Origin: Fibrobacter succinogenes
GTDB lineage: Bacteria; Fibrobacterota; Fibrobacteria; Fibrobacterales; Fibrobacteraceae
Length of the DNA stretch: 64,000 bases
Direction of reading: 5' to 3'
NCBI GenBank assembly: GCA_902756345.1
Contig: CACVQR010000003.1
Span: forward strand, 62,001 to 126,000
Part shown: positions 9,619 to 58,856 of the stretch, in pieces
Numbering within the stretch: the stretch's first letter is position 1
Layout of the letters: each line of letters opens with the position of its first letter
Position numbers and translations under genes: made by a program
The notes under the pieces: generated by a model
The model's input: the letters and a program-made list of their open reading frames with translations, nothing else
Databases searched by the model: none
Told to the model about the DNA's origin: nothing

Positions 9619-10158
9619 ATGCATCCGCTTAAACACTTTATAACGATTACGAAACACCGAAACGAGGTGATTCGGCTTTGCTTTAGGGCTGGAATCGGGT
9701 TCCAGGGATTGTTTCACGATTTGTCGAAGTACAGCCCGACTGAATTTATTCCGGGAGCCAAGTACTACATGGGTGACCAGTCTCCCAACAACGGGGAGCG
9801 CAACGACAAGGGCTATAGCTTGGCTTGGATGCATCATAAGGGCCGGAACAAACATCATTTTGAATTCTGGTATGACTATGAAATGGCGACCAAGAAGCTT
9901 GTGCCGATTGATATGCCGGACCGCTACATTAAAGAGATGTTCTGCGATCGTGTGGCCGCATCCAAGACATACAACAAGGCGGGCTATACGCAAGAATCGC
10001 CGCTTTTGTATTTGACTAAAAGTACGGCTTGCGAAAAGATGACCGAAAAAACTTACCGCAAGTTGCTTTACTTGCTCAAGATGCTTGCCGAAAAAGGTGA
10101 AAAAGAAACGCTTGCCTTTATGCGCCGCACGAAGGTGCTGCCCGAAGCAGAAGTTTAA
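9619..10158 (+). CDS. DUF5662 family protein
   Basis: A 179-residue protein matching the DUF5662 pattern: an N-terminal HxxxVxxLCFxxG helix, FHDLSKYSPTEF with an HD-like pair, and SLAWMHHKGRNKHH. The His/Asp-rich arrangement suggests a metal-binding or HD-like hydrolase, but no function is established. It starts 17 nt after the exporter stop, so it may be co-transcribed, although there is no clear link to the cluster. Its stop codon overlaps that of the convergent RNA methyltransferase by 3 bp (TTTAAA). Confidence 0.72.
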   Translation: MHPLKHFITITKHRNEVIRLCFRAGIGFQGLFHDLSKYSPTEFIPGAKYYMGDQSPNNGERNDKGYSLAWMHHKGRNKHHFEFWYDYEMATKKLVPIDMPDRYIKEMFCDRVAASKTYNKAGYTQESPLLYLTKSTACEKMTEKTYRKLLYLLKMLAEKGEKETLAFMRRTKVLPEAEV

Positions 10159-11567
10159 ATCTTTGCGATAAACACGTTCAGGCTGAAACCGCCGTGGCTG
10201 GTGGCGATGCATTTTGCGACCGGATTTTGTTGCGGGGCGAGCGCAGGGCATTCGTGCAATAAGTTTGCGGTGCAAGTGTATTTGGAGCCTGGGCGGTTGT
10301 CGTCTTTGGGAGCAAGGATTGCTACTGTGAGTTGCTTGCCGAAGGGCGTTAGGTCGCGCGAAAGTTCGGCGAGTCGGCGGCCAATTTGCGTATAGAGCTT
10401 GGGTGCGTCAAAATCAAGGCGCTTGCCGTAGGGCGGGTTCAACACGATAACGGGCGAGGCTTCGCCCGAGTTCGAATTGCAGGAACATGCGTCGGCAATT
10501 TCTTTTGCGGTGTAGCTGAAAAAGTCGCGAAGTTGGGGGGTGATTGTCGGTGTGGCGTCGTTTGGAGCGATGTCTGCGAGCGGACCGCTTTCCACATTGT
10601 GCTTGATGATTTCGACGGCCTTAGGCGAAATGTCGCTGGTGAGGATGCGCGTGATTGGATTCTTCGACTCCACGCCGTTCGGCGTTTCGCTCAGAATGAC
10701 ACGCTCTTGTTTGACGATGTGGTTCCAGGTAGCGGGTTTGAATGCGGGCTGGTGCTTGAGTGCGAAATCGCGGCTTTTCCCTGGAATGAGTCCGTTTGCC
10801 ATGTAGGCAGCTTCGAGGCTGAACGTGCCGCTGCCAGCCATTAAATCAAGTAGGCAGTAGGAAGTAGGAAGTGGACAGGCAGGTGATGGTAATGAACAGG
10901 TTTCGAAAATCATCGCGGCGGCTATGGTTTCTTTGAGGGGGGCGTCGTTCACGAACCGCTCGTGACCGCGCTTGTAAAGTTCCTCGCCGGCAAGGTCTAG
11001 CCAAATGGTGCAGCGGTCATTGATAAGGGTGACGTAGAGGTTTTGAGGGGGTGGGGTATGGGGTCGGGCTTCACCCTTTGAGCTCGCTTCGCTTTGGGCC
11101 ATGTGAAATTGCGTGATTACGTTGTTCAGGCGTTCTGCGATGGCGTCGCTATGGTACAGTCGAGAATGCTTGCAGGTGACATGTATGTTCAGTAATCTTT
11201 CGTCTTTCGTCTGTAGCGAGTTATCGAGCGTTCTTTCGTCTAAATAAAGTTCCCAGGGAATTTCGGCGGCTTTCTTTTCGAGGTCACGGAAGTTTTCTGC
11301 CTTAAAATCGGCAATGTGCATCAGCACGCGGTTTGCAATGCGGCTGTAGGCCACAGCTTTCCAAGCTTCGGTGATTTTCGCGGTGAATTCAACCTTGCCG
11401 TCTCCTGCAATAGCAGGGGCGCCTTGGGCATCGGTAAATTCTAGCCCGTAACCTTGCAGTTCGCGAACAAGAGTCTGTTCAAAACCGAGAGGGGCAATCG
11501 CCAAAAACCGGTGCGGTTTTCCGATAATTTGCCGTTTAAGCCTTTTTTCGAGGTTATTGGTAATCAA
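10155..11567 (-). CDS. RlmL/THUMP-type RNA guanine-N2 methyltransferase with in-frame repeat insertions
   Basis: About 470 residues resembling the N-terminal half of RlmL, the 23S rRNA G2445 methyltransferase. It has a THUMP-containing N-terminus (FLAIAPLGFEQTLVRELQGY), SAM motif I LLDLMAGSGTF and catalytic NPPYGKR. No ATG fits the N-terminus. TTG at 11567 (14-nt overlap with dnaG) or the TTG of FLAI are the candidate starts, and the longer open frame to 11846 only reads dnaG codons in another frame. Between conserved motifs lie odd segments: [12 protein letters not shown] (a heptad repeat), VILSETPNGVESKNP (a palindromic repeat also at 40372) and the unexplained SSKGEARPHTPPP. These look like tolerated repeat insertions in surface loops. 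Confidence 0.8.
   Translation of the reverse strand: MITNNLEKRLKRQIIGKPHRFLAIAPLGFEQTLVRELQGYGLEFTDAQGAPAIAGDGKVEFTAKITEAWKAVAYSRIANRVLMHIADFKAENFRDLEKKAAEIPWELYLDERTLDNSLQTKDERLLNIHVTCKHSRLYHSDAIAERLNNVITQFHMAQSEASSKGEARPHTPPPQNLYVTLINDRCTIWLDLAGEELYKRGHERFVNDAPLKETIAAAMIFETCSLPSPACPLPTSYCLLDLMAGSGTFSLEAAYMANGLIPGKSRDFALKHQPAFKPATWNHIVKQERVILSETPNGVESKNPITRILTSDISPKAVEIIKHNVESGPLADIAPNDATPTITPQLRDFFSYTAKEIADACSCNSNSGEASPVIVLNPPYGKRLDFDAPKLYTQIGRRLAELSRDLTPFGKQLTVAILAPKDDNRPGSKYTCTANLLHECPALAPQQNPVAKCIATSHGGFSLNVFIAKI
10655..10703 (-). repeat. GTCATYCTGAGCGAAACG palindromic repeat inside a coding region
   Basis: Read on the minus strand, the segment GTGTCATTCTGAGCGAAACG to GGCGTGGAGTCGAAGAATCC matches the intergenic copy at 40372-40418 with only a few differences. 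A diverged relative lies at 48269-48307. Here it is in frame and encodes VILSETPNGVESKNP in the RNA methyltransferase. Confidence 0.85.
10850..10884 (+). repeat. Heptad repeat family A inside a coding region
   Basis: GTAGGCAGTAGGAAGTAGGA and the following bases are five degenerate 7-bp units of the same family as the arrays at 17569, 40345, 49676 and 55233. The methyltransferase gene reads the CTTCCTA strand, which is free of stops, giving [12 protein letters not shown] directly before SAM motif I. Confidence 0.85.
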
Positions 11568-17568: not shown

Positions 17569-17634
17569 CTAACCACTCTCAACTTCCAACTTCCAACTTC
17601 CTACTGTCTACTTCCTACTTCCTACTTCCTACTA
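17569..17634. repeat. Heptad repeat family A array
   Basis: About nine 7-bp units, CTTCCAA and then CTTCCTA with one CTGTCTA variant, fill the gap between trmB and the RNase Z-like gene. The last CTA is the TAG stop codon of the RNase Z-like gene on the minus strand, so the array abuts or supplies that stop. Read from that gene the unit is TAGGAAG. Confidence 0.85.
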
Positions 17635-18537: not shown

Positions 18538-18554
18538 GCAAAAGAACTTGGGTA

Positions 18555-18690
18555 GTTCGGAATTCGGAATTCGGAAATCCGATTTTAATCAAAAAAAATC
18601 GTCTAATTTTATTTAGACGAAATAGGAATATTTTGATATGAAATACGCCGTAGGCGTCAATTCCGAAATCTGAACTCCGAAATCTGAAAT
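18555..18690. repeat. Heptad repeat family C, inverted arms
   Basis: The left arm (TTCGGAATTCGGAATTCGG, 18556-18586) and right arm (TTCCGAAATCTGAACTCCGA, 18659-18690) are inverted relative to each other and built of 7-bp GGAATTC-like units. Between them is a perfect hairpin TCGTCTAA/TTAGACGA. The right arm ends on the TAA stop of the minus-strand lipoprotein gene. Confidence 0.75.
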
Positions 18691-23181: not shown

Positions 23182-23607
23182 GTGAACGACCTCAAGCATC
23201 AAACCTTATTCGACCCTATTCGCCAAAAAGAGGTGCCTGCCACGCCCGAGGAGCGCGTGCGTCAGGCGACAATCCGTTTCTTGATAGACGAGGTTAAGGT
23301 CCCTCAGAACTTGATTGCGGTAGAGTTTGCGCTTTCGACGGTGGAGCCCAAGACCGATGACCGAGTGGATTTGTTGGTGCAAGATTTCAAGGTTTCCGGT
23401 AATTTAAAGCGCCCGTGGCTCCTTGTAGAATGCAAGGCTCCCGGCGAATACACTTGGCAAGCACTACAAGTGCAGCTGAACAAGTATTTGCAGATTCTGA
23501 CTCCCAAGTACGTGATGTTGTCGCTTGGCGATGCGGTGCGCTATTTTGCGTTGGATGCCGCAACCAAGCGCTTCCTGAAGATTGATTCGCTTCCTGAATT
23601 TGAATAA
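23182..23607 (+). CDS. Small HsdR-N / PD-(D/E)XK-type protein
   Basis: A 141-residue protein resembling the N-terminal nuclease domain of type I restriction R subunits (HSDR_N_2 group). The nuclease-fold signature is visible as RVDLLV, then PWLLVECKAPGE (E-x-K), then QVQLNKYLQIL. There is no helicase domain and no hsdM or hsdS nearby. Stand-alone versions are common in the FCB group and of unknown role. The start is GTG with no good Shine-Dalgarno. Its TAA stop is the first base triplet of a family B repeat. Confidence 0.75.
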   Translation: MNDLKHQTLFDPIRQKEVPATPEERVRQATIRFLIDEVKVPQNLIAVEFALSTVEPKTDDRVDLLVQDFKVSGNLKRPWLLVECKAPGEYTWQALQVQLNKYLQILTPKYVMLSLGDAVRYFALDAATKRFLKIDSLPEFE

Positions 23608-23661
23608 TGTGTAATGAGTAATGTGTGATGAGTAATTATACATTGCACATCTCACATTACT
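23605..23661. repeat. Heptad repeat family B, inverted arms between convergent genes
   Basis: Left arm TAATGTGTAATGAGTAATGT begins exactly on the TAA stop of the HsdR-N-like gene. The right arm, read on the minus strand as TAATGTGAGATGTGC, begins exactly on the TAA stop of xseA. Both flanking stops are therefore part of the element, which can fold into a hairpin. Confidence 0.8.
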
Positions 23662-30011: not shown

Positions 30012-30117
30012 TTCCGAAATCGGAATTCGGAAATGAGAAAAATTTGCTATGAATAAACTCGAAAATGTCTATTATGAGATCAAAAACTCCGAAATCATAA
30101 CTCTGAAATCAGAATTT
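30012..30117. repeat. Heptad repeat family C, inverted arms
   Basis: Left arm TTCCGAAATCGGAATTCGGA (30012 onward); right arm ACTCCGAAATCATAACTCTG running to 30117, where its last bases form the TAA stop of endonuclease I on the minus strand. The centre is AT-rich without a gene. Confidence 0.7.
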
Positions 30118-30879: not shown

Positions 30880-30981
30880 TCTAATGTGTAATGTGAGGTG
30901 TGAAATGAATTGTAGACAGTAGGAAGTTGACCGTTGGCAGTGGTTTTGCCATTACACATTACACATTACACATTACACATT
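30880..30981. repeat. Nested heptad repeats: family A inside family B inverted arms
   Basis: The left B arm (TAATGTGTAATGTGAGGTGT, from about 30883) and right B arm (four perfect ATTACAC units, 30951-30980) are inverted and enclose a family A segment TGTAGACAGTAGGAAGTTGA at 30911-30938. It lies between divergent genes and touches the folC promoter box, so it is not merely a 3' element. Confidence 0.8.
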
Positions 30982-39888: not shown

Positions 39889-40344
39889 ATGGATCAAGCT
39901 CAACTTTTAACGCTCGCGAAACTCGGCGCGGTGGCGGCCCTGGGCCTTGCCGCGGTGGGTTCTGCGCTGGGCTGCGGGACTGCCGGCATGGCGGCCATCG
40001 GGGCCTGGAAGAAGGCGTATCTCAAGGGTAAGAACGCGCTGTTTACGCTGCTCATCTTCGTGGGCGCGCCGATTGCGCAGACAATCTACGGCATGTTGCT
40101 GATGATGTACATCCTGAACAAGTCCCAGGCGGCTCCGGCCAACTGGGCGGCGTATCTCGGTGTGGGCATCTTCGGTGGCATCGGCATGATGGCCTCTGCC
40201 TGGTACGTGGGCAAGTCGGCGGCAGACGCCTGCAACGCCCTCGGCGAAACCGGCAAGGGCCTCGTGAACTACCTGATGGTCTTGGGCGTCGGTGAAACCG
40301 TCGCGCTGTTCGTCATGGTGTTCTCGATGATGCTCGTGAGCTAG
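39889..40344 (+). CDS. V-type ATP synthase rotor subunit K, copy 2 (tandem paralogue)
   Basis: A 151-residue paralogue of the preceding proteolipid, most similar in the two QTIYG and ETGKG regions. The ion-binding Glu is retained (GVGETVALFVMV), so it should be functional and could form mixed rotor rings with copy 1. The TAG stop is followed at once by a family A heptad repeat (TAGACAGTAGG). Confidence 0.92.
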   Translation: MDQAQLLTLAKLGAVAALGLAAVGSALGCGTAGMAAIGAWKKAYLKGKNALFTLLIFVGAPIAQTIYGMLLMMYILNKSQAAPANWAAYLGVGIFGGIGMMASAWYVGKSAADACNALGETGKGLVNYLMVLGVGETVALFVMVFSMMLVS

Positions 40345-40418
40345 TAGACAGTAGGAAGTAGACCGTAGGAAGTGTCATCCTGAGCGAAACGCCGTGAGGC
40401 GTGGAGTCGAAGGATCTC
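40345..40418. repeat. Heptad family A segment fused to a GTCATCCTGAGCG palindromic repeat
   Basis: TAGACAGTAGGAAGTAGACC (from 40345) starts directly after the TAG stop of the second K gene. At 40372 it passes into GTGTCATCCTGAGCGAAACG and ends CGAAGGATCT at 40418, the same repeat found inside the RNA methyltransferase gene. Confidence 0.85.
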
Positions 40419-49666: not shown

Positions 49667-49675
49667 AATAACAGA

Positions 49676-49773
49676 CTTCCTACTGTCTACTTCCTACTTC
49701 CTACTTCCTACTGTCTACTTCCTACTTCCTACTTCCTACTGTCTACTTCCTACTTCCTACTTCCTACTTCCTA
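49676..49773. repeat. Tandem heptad array, family A, with 28-bp super-period
   Basis: Fourteen 7-bp units with no spacers: CTTCCTA throughout, with the CTGTCTA variant at units 2, 6 and 10, every 28 bp (49683, 49711, 49739). The copies are identical, pointing to recent expansion by slippage or recombination. The lgt gene on the minus strand ends inside it at 49757. Confidence 0.93.
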
Positions 49774-50629
49774 CTGCTTTCTTCTGCCTGTAAATCAGTA
49801 CAATTAGCCAGATTAAACCGGTCAGGAACATGACGCTGCAAAGCGTTTGTCCGCGGCTCATGCCGAACAGGTCCACACGGCCGAGGTGCGCATCGGGTCT
49901 GCGGAAGAATTCGATGAAGAATCTAAAGAAGCCGTAGCCCATCAGGTATAGGCAAGGCATCTTGTCGCGCAAGAGCGGAATTCGTCTTAAGTTGTACAAG
50001 ATTGCGAACAAGATAATGCCTTCGAACAGCATTTCGTAAAGCTGGCTCGGGTGGTGTAGAATTGGGTTTTCAATAGGGCTGTCGTGGGCGAGCGGGAACC
50101 ACATGCCAATGCCACTCGTGGTGACTTCGCCAAAAAGTTCGCCGTTAATGAAGTTGCCCCAGCGTCCCCAAGTGTAGGCGAGCGGAGCAAGCATGAAGCA
50201 AAGGTTCAGGCCTTCCCAGACCTTCATCTTGTTGCGCTTCAGGCCAATGTAGGTGAATATCGTTCCGAGAATCATGCCGCCGTGGTAGCTCATGCCTGAG
50301 ATTCCGGCAAAGTGGTAGCCAAGAGCATCGTGAGTCATGGGCAGTATGATTTCGGTCGGGTTTGCAAGGTAGTAGCCCGGTTTGTAGAAGAACACGTAAC
50401 CCAGTCGCGCACCGATGATGATGCCCGCGATAATCCAGGTGAACAGGCTGTCGAACTGGTCCTTGGTGTAGCCCAGCTTTTCTTTCTTGTTCACGTGCAT
50501 CAGCGTCAGGTAGCCTGTCACGAAGGCGAAAATGTACATGATGCCGTACCAGCGCACCGGGAAACTCCCGAGTGTAAAGGCCGTTCCGTCAAAATAAGAA
50601 GGGATTAGATTCCACCATGTCGGTTCCAT
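49757..50629 (-). CDS. lgt: Prolipoprotein diacylglyceryl transferase
   Basis: A 290-residue inner-membrane enzyme that attaches diacylglycerol to lipobox cysteines. About seven membrane helices, with the family signature [16 protein letters not shown] and the conserved HPSQLYE block. The C-terminal tail AVGSRK and its TAG stop are read from the family A repeat array, so the repeat supplies the end of the protein. It follows the penicillin-binding protein gene with a 1-nt gap, so the two are probably co-transcribed. Confidence 0.95.
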
Positions 50630-55114: not shown

Positions 55115-55125
55115 TTCAATGTGAA

Positions 55126-55194
55126 GTGTGAAATGTGTAATGACTAATTAAAAATTATTCATTTCTCATCACACACTACACATTACACATTTAC
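55126..55194. repeat. Heptad repeat family B, inverted arms
   Basis: The left arm AATGTGAAGTGTGAAATGTG starts at 55126, 11 nt after the fabF stop; the right arm CACACTACACATTACACATT is inverted. Between them is AT-rich sequence. A classical terminator follows directly. Confidence 0.75.
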
Positions 55195-55232: not shown

Positions 55233-55328
55233 TAGTAGACAGTAGGAAGTAGACTGTAGACTGTAAAAATTTGTTAGCTATTTCTTCCTACTTCTAACTT
55301 CCTACTTCCTACTTCTAACGTCCTACTT
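55233..55328. repeat. Heptad repeat family A, inverted arms
   Basis: The left arm TAGTAGACAGTAGGAAGTAG (55233-55264) and the right arm CTTCCTACTTCTAACTTCCT (55284-55328) are inverted around an AT-rich loop of about 20 nt. The right arm ends 16 nt before the GTG of the DUF2279 gene, next to a TATAATTG near-match box. Confidence 0.78.
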
Positions 55329-55344
55329 TTCTATAATTGTCTCC

Positions 55345-56277
55345 GTGAAAATTTTTCGTTCCATATCGATTGCTTTGGTGTCGCTCCTGTTTGCAAGCGT
55401 TTCCTTGCTAGCGGCTCCGAGCGATCCGCCGACTTGGCGCGATTCTACTTGGGATTACCGCAGCGAAGACCCTAGTGATACGATTGAATTTTCTGTCGCT
55501 AAAAGTGTCGGTGTTGCATCTACGGTTTTGATTGCTTATGGCGCTGCCTACTGGCTTGTGTTCGATAAAGGCTGGTGGGGCGATCAGGATAGTCATTTCC
55601 ATTTCGAAAACGATTTTGATTACGCCCTGAACCTGGATAAATTTGGGCATTTCGCCTCGGGCGTCATGATGGGCGAGTCCTTTTACGAAGGCTACCGCTG
55701 GGCGGGAATTTCTGAGTTTTATTCGTACTTGTTCGCGGGTTTTTCGGCGATGGCGACTCATATTGCCATCGACGTGAAAGATGGCTATTCGCCGGAGTGG
55801 GGCTTTAGCATTTTTGACGTGCTCTCGGGAACCTTGGGCGGTTTCTTGCCGATGGCGGAACGCTATGTGCCCGTGTTCAAGTACGTGGACCTCAAGTGGA
55901 GCTACTGGATTAACACCAAAGCGTATTACAGACAAAGTAAAACAGGCGTGTTTACCGACGACTATTGCAACCAAACTTTCTGGGCTTCGTTCAAGGTTTA
56001 CCGCATGTTGCCTAAGGCCGCACGCCAGTATTATCCGAGCTGGCTTGCGATTGCTGCGGGCTTAAGTATTGATGAAGGCGTGTTCCTGCACGACAAAGAC
56101 GTAACGCCGCATCGCGAAGTCTACATTGCGCTGGATTACGATCTGGAAGCGTTCCGTCCGCAGAGCCGTATGGCGCGCACTATCGTGAAATACCTGAATT
56201 ACTTCAAGTTGCCGGCCCCCACCGTGCAAGTTTATCCCGAAATCCACTGGTATTTGCTGTACCCGATTAAGTTCTGA
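55345..56277 (+). CDS. DUF2279 family outer protein
   Basis: A 310-residue protein with a signal peptide (residues about 1-23, ending SLLAAP), and then the DUF2279 pattern: a membrane-associated region, NLDKFGHFASGVMMGESFYEG and VKDGYSPEWGFSIFDVLSG. It is an exported, probably outer-membrane-associated, protein of unknown role. The start is GTG at 55345. TATAATTG, one mismatch from TAnnTTTG, lies 5 nt upstream. Its TGA stop is the first triplet of a family C repeat. Confidence 0.72.
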   Translation: MKIFRSISIALVSLLFASVSLLAAPSDPPTWRDSTWDYRSEDPSDTIEFSVAKSVGVASTVLIAYGAAYWLVFDKGWWGDQDSHFHFENDFDYALNLDKFGHFASGVMMGESFYEGYRWAGISEFYSYLFAGFSAMATHIAIDVKDGYSPEWGFSIFDVLSGTLGGFLPMAERYVPVFKYVDLKWSYWINTKAYYRQSKTGVFTDDYCNQTFWASFKVYRMLPKAARQYYPSWLAIAAGLSIDEGVFLHDKDVTPHREVYIALDYDLEAFRPQSRMARTIVKYLNYFKLPAPTVQVYPEIHWYLLYPIKF

Positions 56278-56428
56278 GTTCGGAATTCGGATTTCAGATT
56301 TGTATAAGCTTCAAATGCTTGCCTAAATTATAGGTTCGCAAGTAACTGTACAATGTTCGGCTTACTTATTTGTAGGAGTTTTATCCTACTTATAACACTC
56401 CGAATTCAGAATTCTGAATTCTGAATTT
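56275..56428. repeat. Heptad repeat family C, inverted arms upstream of ribE
   Basis: The left arm TGAGTTCGGAATTCGGATTT begins on the TGA stop of the DUF2279 gene. The right arm ACTCCGAATTCAGAATTCTG (56397-56428) ends 2 nt before the ribE promoter box. The interior holds a GTAGGA/TCCTAC hairpin. No FMN riboswitch pattern was found here. Confidence 0.75.
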
Positions 56429-58767: not shown

Positions 58768-58846
58768 GATAATGTGTAATGTGGAATGTGTAATGACAAA
58801 TGCCTAATTACTCACTTCACATTTCACACTTCACATTTCACATCTG
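58768..58846. repeat. Heptad repeat family B, inverted arms upstream of nusB
   Basis: The left arm TAATGTGTAATGTGGAATGT and right arm TTACTCACTTCACATTTCAC, the latter with four nearly perfect YTTCACA units, are inverted and separate ribH from nusB. Confidence 0.78.
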
Positions 58847-58856
58847 AATCTTGATT

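Follow-up and report, generated by a model that had tools for sequence, protein, structure and literature searches.

Heptad-repeat arms at stop codons in Fibrobacter mark the edges of paired intergenic elements

Tandem heptanucleotides occur in the intergenic DNA of heterocystous cyanobacteria, where they are known as STRR repeats. Two further sets of heptads are the intergenic repeats GGGAATC and GGGGA(C/T)T of Xanthomonas and Nostoc/Anabaena (Rehm et al. 2015, PMC4692102) and the TAACTGA direct repeats of Beggiatoaceae, Cyanobacteria and Bacteroidetes (MacGregor 2015, PMC4679880). The former combine a constant core with variable positions, prefer four units and differ in sequence between close species; their pairs are always in convergent orientation and are under-represented between divergent genes, and they lie on the coding strand after ORFs (within 50 bp, overlap with the stop codon included) and on the non-coding strand before ORFs (PMC4692102). 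TAACTGA repeats carry stops in all frames on the forward strand, 13 sets overlap the upstream stop codon, intragenic sets mostly take the stop-free orientation, and the same word recurs in distant lineages (PMC4679880). We found no report of such repeats for Fibrobacter in the literature searched, and the Fibrobacter S85 genome paper makes no mention of them.

The heptads described here came to attention in a stretch of 64,000 nucleotides of the Fibrobacter succinogenes genome G000 (3.36 Mb in 27 contigs), at C3:62001-126000, which we call the window. Genome-wide counts rest on sampled stretches of 1.218 Mb, or 36% of G000, where our own home-made dicodon model called genes covering 88-91% of the sequence; gene identities in the window come from Pfam profiles, the DUF2279 match lying below the cut-off. 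Arrays were sought in the same 1.218 Mb by self-similarity at each lag. Lag 7 returned 165 segments, 149 of them intergenic, and lags 5, 6, 8, 9 and 11 returned 0 or 1 intergenic segment each, so that 7 was the sole enriched intergenic period among the lags tested. Lag-7 self-similarity alone placed 33 segments near a stop codon against about 15; because it blurs the ends of arms, we adopted family-specific arm edges instead. For family A a reversed-sequence control carries no information, TAATGTG read backwards being a rotation of the same word.

Each arm is a module of about 31-32 nt, typically made up of five short motifs at 7-nt spacing. The length mode of 31-33 nt (31 nt, n = 29; 32 nt, n = 43; 33 nt, n = 18) corresponds to four units plus a fifth motif. 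The motif is near-invariant and the spacer variable: family A joins AAT to the 4-nt spacers GTGA, GTGT, GTGG or GAGT, family B joins AGT to AGGA, AGAC or AGGC, family C joins AATT to CGG or CAG (its unit, TTCRGAA, lacks TAA and TAG), and family D joins TAGA to ACT or GCT. G000 holds at least six such word families at once; the main words (AATGTGN, AGTAGRM, AATTCRG and TAGAACT) contain no runs of three G, and a C-rich, G-poor strand is confined to families A and B. All 37 of the C arms that could be parsed in register, out of 68, have exactly five motifs, and A and B arms mostly have five, some being longer. Where an arm meets a stop codon, the outer motif opens with the last two bases of the stop, and a T preceding the outer motif is common at the start-facing ends of B and C arms too.

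The earlier note on this DNA had named eight stop codons that coincide with or touch an arm, and indeed all eight lie within a period-7 arm or no more than 2 nt from one. Counted from the stop's first base to the point where the outward arm ends on its outer side, the offset is -4 for the HsdR-N-like gene (PF13588, 23182-23607, plus strand, stop 23605-23607), whose TAA is the first unit of a family A arm of TAATGTG words at 23605-23636 (plus strand, outward unit in sense F). The partner A arm, at 23635-23661 on the minus strand, has its first unit on the TAA stop (23657-23659) of xseA, which encodes the exonuclease VII large subunit (PF02601, 23657-24955, minus strand; offset -2). Family B arms begin in the TAG stops of the Lactamase_B_2/RNase Z-like gene at 17632 (17575-17633, minus strand, AGTAGGA/AGTAGAC; offset +1) and of the second ATP-synt_C/V-ATPase K gene (40343-40373, plus strand, 31 nt; offset +1). 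Family C arms of 32 nt begin in the TAA stops of the gene ending at 18690 (18659-18690, minus strand; offset +2), whose start-facing partner, also 32 nt, lies at 18554-18585 on the plus strand, and of the endonuclease I gene (PF04231; arm 30085-30116, minus strand; offset +2). Another C arm (56270-56301, plus strand) provides the TGA stop of the DUF2279-like gene at 55378-56277 (offset -5), and its partner (56397-56427, minus strand) abuts TCTATATTTG upstream of the next gene. The lgt stop (49757-49759) sits deep within its own arm, at -25 by extended similarity: the long minus-strand B array at 49675-49775 (region 49675-49784) encodes both the stop and the last Lgt residues, at least two heptad units being translated as the C terminus KKAVGSRK.

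Other arms in the window stand apart from stops. The divergent gap between endA and a folC-like Mur-ligase gene, recognized in the earlier note as an exception, does hold A arms with no stop codon at hand: that at 30883-30908 (plus strand) keeps its outward polarity, and its partner at 30950-30981 (minus strand) ends beside TAAATTTG. An A pair at 55118-55191, past a beta-ketoacyl synthase gene, is off the exact stop and is common to the relatives G030, G005 and G003; a B pair at 55234-55329 occupies the same gap. In a comparison of five species, a further A pair, at 58770-58844 (region 58768-58850), was confined to G000. A B arm (10848-10878) and an E array (11196-11212) lie inside an RlmL-like methyltransferase gene (10155-11567, minus strand), the B arm in its stop-free orientation.

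The earlier note had proposed the distribution of stop-to-arm distances as the observation that could overturn its reading. Run on the 1.2-Mb sample with family-specific edges, and with uniform placement within the same gaps as the expectation, this distribution peaked 1-2 nt past the first base of the stop, at which distances we found 37 of 123 stop-facing arms against 9.2 expected (P ~1e-13). The count was 26 at d = 1 (4.9 expected) and 11 at d = 2 (4.3 expected); as the last two bases of TAA match the outer motif AATT, an arm placed directly after the stop also scores d = 1, yet counts pooled over d = 1-3 were still far above expectation. Between -6 and +3 of the stop there were 58 arms against 26.4 expected, and the peak survived where the unfilled gap exceeded 80 nt (29% at d = 1-2). 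Family C carries most of this lock (24/39 against 3.0 expected, P 1e-17), that of families A and B being weak (P 0.03-0.04). We concluded that the placement of arms at stops is real and non-random. The claim that arms begin exactly on stop codons thus stands as a coincidence but not as a rule, since most arms begin elsewhere (for example at 55118 and 58770).

Among neighbouring arms of opposite sense in the 1.218 Mb, 82 were in the order FR (G-rich left and C-rich right on the plus strand) and 3 in the order RF, and 73 of the 85 pairs drew both partners from the same word family. Two arms of one family usually face each other, the word running into the gap from either side irrespective of gene direction. 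The earlier note had attributed the inversion to the convergence of the flanking genes, an idea that the gap types contradict: the outward polarity is the same in tandem (FR:RF 58:3), convergent (17:0) and divergent (7:0) gaps. Inversion is therefore a property of the pair and not of convergent genes. Arm density per kilobase of gap is 1.92 in convergent, 1.23 in tandem and 0.62 in divergent gaps, and many arms have no partner. On one side the outer edge of the element rests on a stop codon, and on the opposite side it meets either a second stop or a TAnnTTT box that looks like part of a promoter; such a box, which resembles the Bacteroidetes -7 box, lies 2-9 nt beyond the start-facing arm end in 21 of 117 cases, against ~3.8 expected from shuffled flanks. 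The interiors between arms often hold a separate GC-rich hairpin or intrinsic terminator, and in the gaps of the G000 sample only a short GC hairpin recurs among them. This short stable hairpin (GCGGCTTCGCCGC-like) is found between arms of differing families in gaps of contigs C1, C3, C4 and C6. A separate dispersed element with CAGGATGACAC or GAAGGATC occurs in several gaps, sometimes beside arms (e.g., C4:4989 and C1:362281).

Do the arms, as the earlier note held, serve as stop cassettes, kept so that every frame is closed after a gene? Its arithmetic is correct, in that three 7-nt units visit all three frames, and TAA or TAG is indeed present inside A and B units, the outward strands of which carry 12-13 stop triplets per 100 nt; in 77% of genes with A arms and 91% of those with B arms the next 12 codons contain an extra stop, the background being 43%. 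However, family C has only 1.6 stop triplets per 100 nt on its outward strand and yet shows the tightest lock, and start-facing arms are as rich in stops as stop-facing ones (A, 11.7 vs 13.1; B, 12.0 vs 12.3 per 100 nt). Nor is the gene's own frame favoured: a second stop within 3 codons is found in 9% of cases in the own frame versus 41% and 36% in the other two for A, in 43% versus 65% and 17% for B, and in 9, 9 and 6% across the frames for C. Where a relative has no arm, an ordinary stop usually closes the protein at the same residue, and a published study reports no sign that eubacteria are selected to carry additional stops (PMC6764699). We give hardly any credence, then, to the idea of fail-safe translation stops. 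Inside genes, arms of families A, B, H and F are mostly reversed (7/9), which is the stop-free orientation, whereas those of the stop-poor families C and E are mostly forward (10/11). Since intragenic A and B arms mostly take the stop-free orientation, any gene whose end is overrun by an A or B arm is bound to stop there, and geometry limits the places in which arms of these two families can persist. The arm is the border of a paired element that seeks out gene boundaries, not a device built to supply stops.

Comparison with relatives showed how quickly these elements come and go. Of 61 related genomes, 20 carry one of the two main words and 11 the other, and every one of these carriers belongs to the genus (36 near genomes are of the same genus as G000); the amplified word differs between species, and matches in a search with the B word were mainly Fibrobacter records. 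Orthologous gaps conserve the end of the protein with or without an arm, and in armless relatives the same stop is joined directly to the same downstream promoter or start. For example, one gap reads TAATACTATATT in G030 and G010, and G000 has a full C pair between the TAA and TACTATATT. The arm at the HsdR-N-like stop is found in G000 only, the gap being armless in seven relatives. At several gaps differing families occupy one conserved stop: following the same residue of the RNase Z-like protein, the arm is of family B in G000, G030 and G004, of family A in G005 and built from a GAATGAAR word in G009, and G003 and G020 are armless. Relatives end the DUF2279-like protein at the same residue with TAG, where G000 uses the arm-derived TGA. 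At lgt the arm has extended into the coding end, the number of units differs among G000, G030, G010 and G003, and near relatives have fewer units and more distant ones none. Turnover is fast, with words swapped between species ~90% identical in the flanking genes. In G009, for which the words of that genome were used in scoring, 5 of the 11 arrays facing a stop lay within -8 to +4 of it against 1.0 expected; G030 and G010 showed a weak excess near stops, measured with blurred lag-7 edges. The G009 sequences L128-L134 hold ten heptad words in 140 kb, TAAAGGA and GAATGAAR types included, in a stop-hugging layout.

AGTAGNN is also dispersed in the Planctomycetota MAG nzgw511 and the Anaerolineae MAG TGS_CHL14, with 53 and 48 matches to AGTAGNNAGTAGNNAGTAG genome-wide and 0 and 15 matches to the reversed-pattern control, respectively. 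These heptads were seen at L182, L214 and L221 of the former and L173 of the latter; at L173, L182 and L221 they form inverted intergenic pairs, and at L182 the stop of ORF 1246-2220 lies inside an arm. Contigs L186 (Treponema MAG) and L188 (Prevotella MAG) carry Fibrobacter-type B arms and are possibly misbinned.

Our best guess, which we consider quite possible rather than probable, is that the arms are the two halves of an intergenic boundary element in the form of an imperfect hairpin. We count in its support the peak at stops, the 82:3 polarity, the shared family of most partners, the fixed length, the five motifs of every parsed C arm, the TAnnTTT ends, the empty sites, the gaps in which one conserved stop has different families in different species, the like anatomy of the Xanthomonas and Nostoc heptads (PMC4692102), the greater density in convergent than in divergent gaps and the predicted RNA folding of five window pairs (z -3.1 to -5.2, with periodic internal loops), of which the arms at 23605-23661 give z -5.2, also with internal loops. 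Genomes as compact as these would leave such an element no free room except from a stop up to the following promoter and, together with the fit of TAA or TAG to the outer motif, this would produce the coincidence with stops; the stop codons inside the units would be a by-product. The least certain steps are that a transcribed pair would fold into a long imperfect hairpin and that the hairpin would act like a 3' boundary of the REP/BIME type, protecting the mRNA end or damping read-through into the next unit. Against such a role, transcription probably begins downstream of a start-facing arm, so that both arms of a divergent gap could go untranscribed. Two other roles were considered. At 23605-23661, the one pair checked for an intrinsic terminator, the predicted hairpin is AU-rich, not a GC-rich hairpin with a U run, and is followed by CTTTACAAC on one strand and by no T run on the other. 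For a Rho rut site, the C-rich exit strand fits families A and B, and families C and D do not fit.

Counted against the hairpin are the unpartnered arms, the separate intrinsic terminators between arms in many gaps and the partners themselves, which are less complementary than random same-family arms, the opposite of selection for a stable stem. Partner similarity was 0.465 versus 0.549 for random same-family arms in A, 0.448 versus 0.565 in B and 0.506 versus 0.576 in C, and in all three families none of 5000 permutations was as low as observed. Compensatory pairing was accordingly rejected, the permuted-partner comparison having given the opposite of covariation. In B pairs one arm has spacers ending in C and the other spacers ending in A (rho -0.84), and B partners are again unlike each other at further named loci of Fibrobacter (P 0.0014 for 9 pairs, the loci having been chosen by a B word). 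Partner dissimilarity possibly reflects avoidance of long perfect palindromes (sensitivity to nuclease or RNase III).

Other origins have to be weighed against the boundary element. The arms might be neutral or selfish filler, functionless arrays born of replication errors and surviving only between stop and promoter; slippage as a source of heptad arrays is a proposal cited in PMC4692102. The rapid turnover and word swapping would suit such filler, as would the lack of any apparent pattern among arm-associated genes and the clear expansion and contraction of some B arrays by whole units, as at lgt. Slippage, however, predicts neighbouring units that are alike, and the identity of adjacent units was at or below the shuffled level within error (A, 0.107 vs 0.089; B, 0.237 vs 0.213; C, 0.063 vs 0.148). 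Filler also sits badly with the 37 parsed C arms of exactly five motifs and with a lock that remains where more than 80 nt of gap is free, and it leaves same-family inverted pairs and partner dissimilarity unpredicted; we regard it as somewhat unlikely. Fixed motif number and spacing, together with single arms, would be expected if a sequence-specific protein bound five motifs per arm in duplex DNA to mark gene boundaries, the words tracking changes in the protein, and gap-edge polarity regardless of transcription and a near-invariant motif with a variable spacer point the same way. Yet at least six word families in one genome would call for as many proteins, for which we identified no candidate, and we think this reading doubtful.

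A MITE-like mobile element, the arms being terminal inverted repeats inserted at or near stop codons, would explain the clean presence and absence at conserved sites, the inverted termini, the fixed outer phase and the T that also commonly precedes the outer motif where B and C arms face a start. We nevertheless consider it decidedly improbable. For A and C, Hamming distances between arms are those expected if units were put together at random, and B shows a small excess of identical arms; the best long copy genome-wide of the G000-specific A pair at ~58768-58850 is only ~80-84% identical, although gene flow from unsampled relatives could also import diverged arms; and interiors are unshared apart from the short hairpin. 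Clean sites are few, and at the one cleanest empty site any target duplication is 1 nt or less; the TA duplication of an IS630/mariner-like element is absent there. No Y1/RAYT transposase (PF01797) was matched in G000, whereas 5 of 14 control genomes were positive. Birth of the arms by slippage or by copy and paste was thus rejected on unit statistics, the small excess of identical B arms apart, and neither simple slippage nor recent arm copying explains the set. It is conceivable, if improbable, that an undescribed process in unrelated phyla builds and maintains five-motif heptad arms between a stop and the next promoter, with a lineage-specific lexicon and with partners kept different, the arms being assembled rather than copied or slipped.

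As short extragenic repeats near gene ends that are capable of forming hairpins, the arms resemble REP/BIME elements, from which they differ in lacking a conserved palindrome sequence, in having an internal period of 7 and in occurring in a genome where no PF01797 gene was matched; an origin of the REP/RAYT kind was rejected for want of that Y1 gene. With STRR repeats, going by their general description, they share tandem heptanucleotides in intergenic DNA. Like TAACTGA repeats, they are intergenic, have period 7, include words with stops in all frames on one strand, overlap stops, mostly take the stop-free orientation when intragenic and have a word that recurs in distant lineages; unlike them (mostly forward and just upstream of starts, with one inverted set), they form inverted pairs at gap edges and use other words. 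The census of Fibrobacter families and the orientation of arm edges showed no pattern of forward TAACTGA words ending at a start codon. The heptads of Rehm et al. share with them a period of exactly 7, intergenic location (149/165 here), a preference for about four units (mode 31-33 nt here), convergent inverted pairs (FR 82, RF 3 here) and a position on the coding strand near or overlapping the stop; a constant core beside variable positions, scarcity in divergent gaps and words that change between close species are common to both as well. The Fibrobacter words, on the other hand, have no runs of three or more G and so could not form the G-quadruplex proposed there, and there are many word families in one genome, five motifs per arm, a sharp stop lock and measurably unlike partners. 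The Fibrobacter arms are therefore best filed among the intergenic heptameric repeats, as a variant without G-quadruplex potential. In Xanthomonas, cyanobacteria and giant sulphur bacteria, the four-unit, inverted, stop-hugging layout of intergenic heptads has been read as quadruplex biology or regulation. Fibrobacter has much the same layout with non-quadruplex words, several of them in one genome, so that it is the layout and not the word that needs explaining; given its dissimilar partners, and close relatives whose sites are empty, the question can be tested in Fibrobacter strains.
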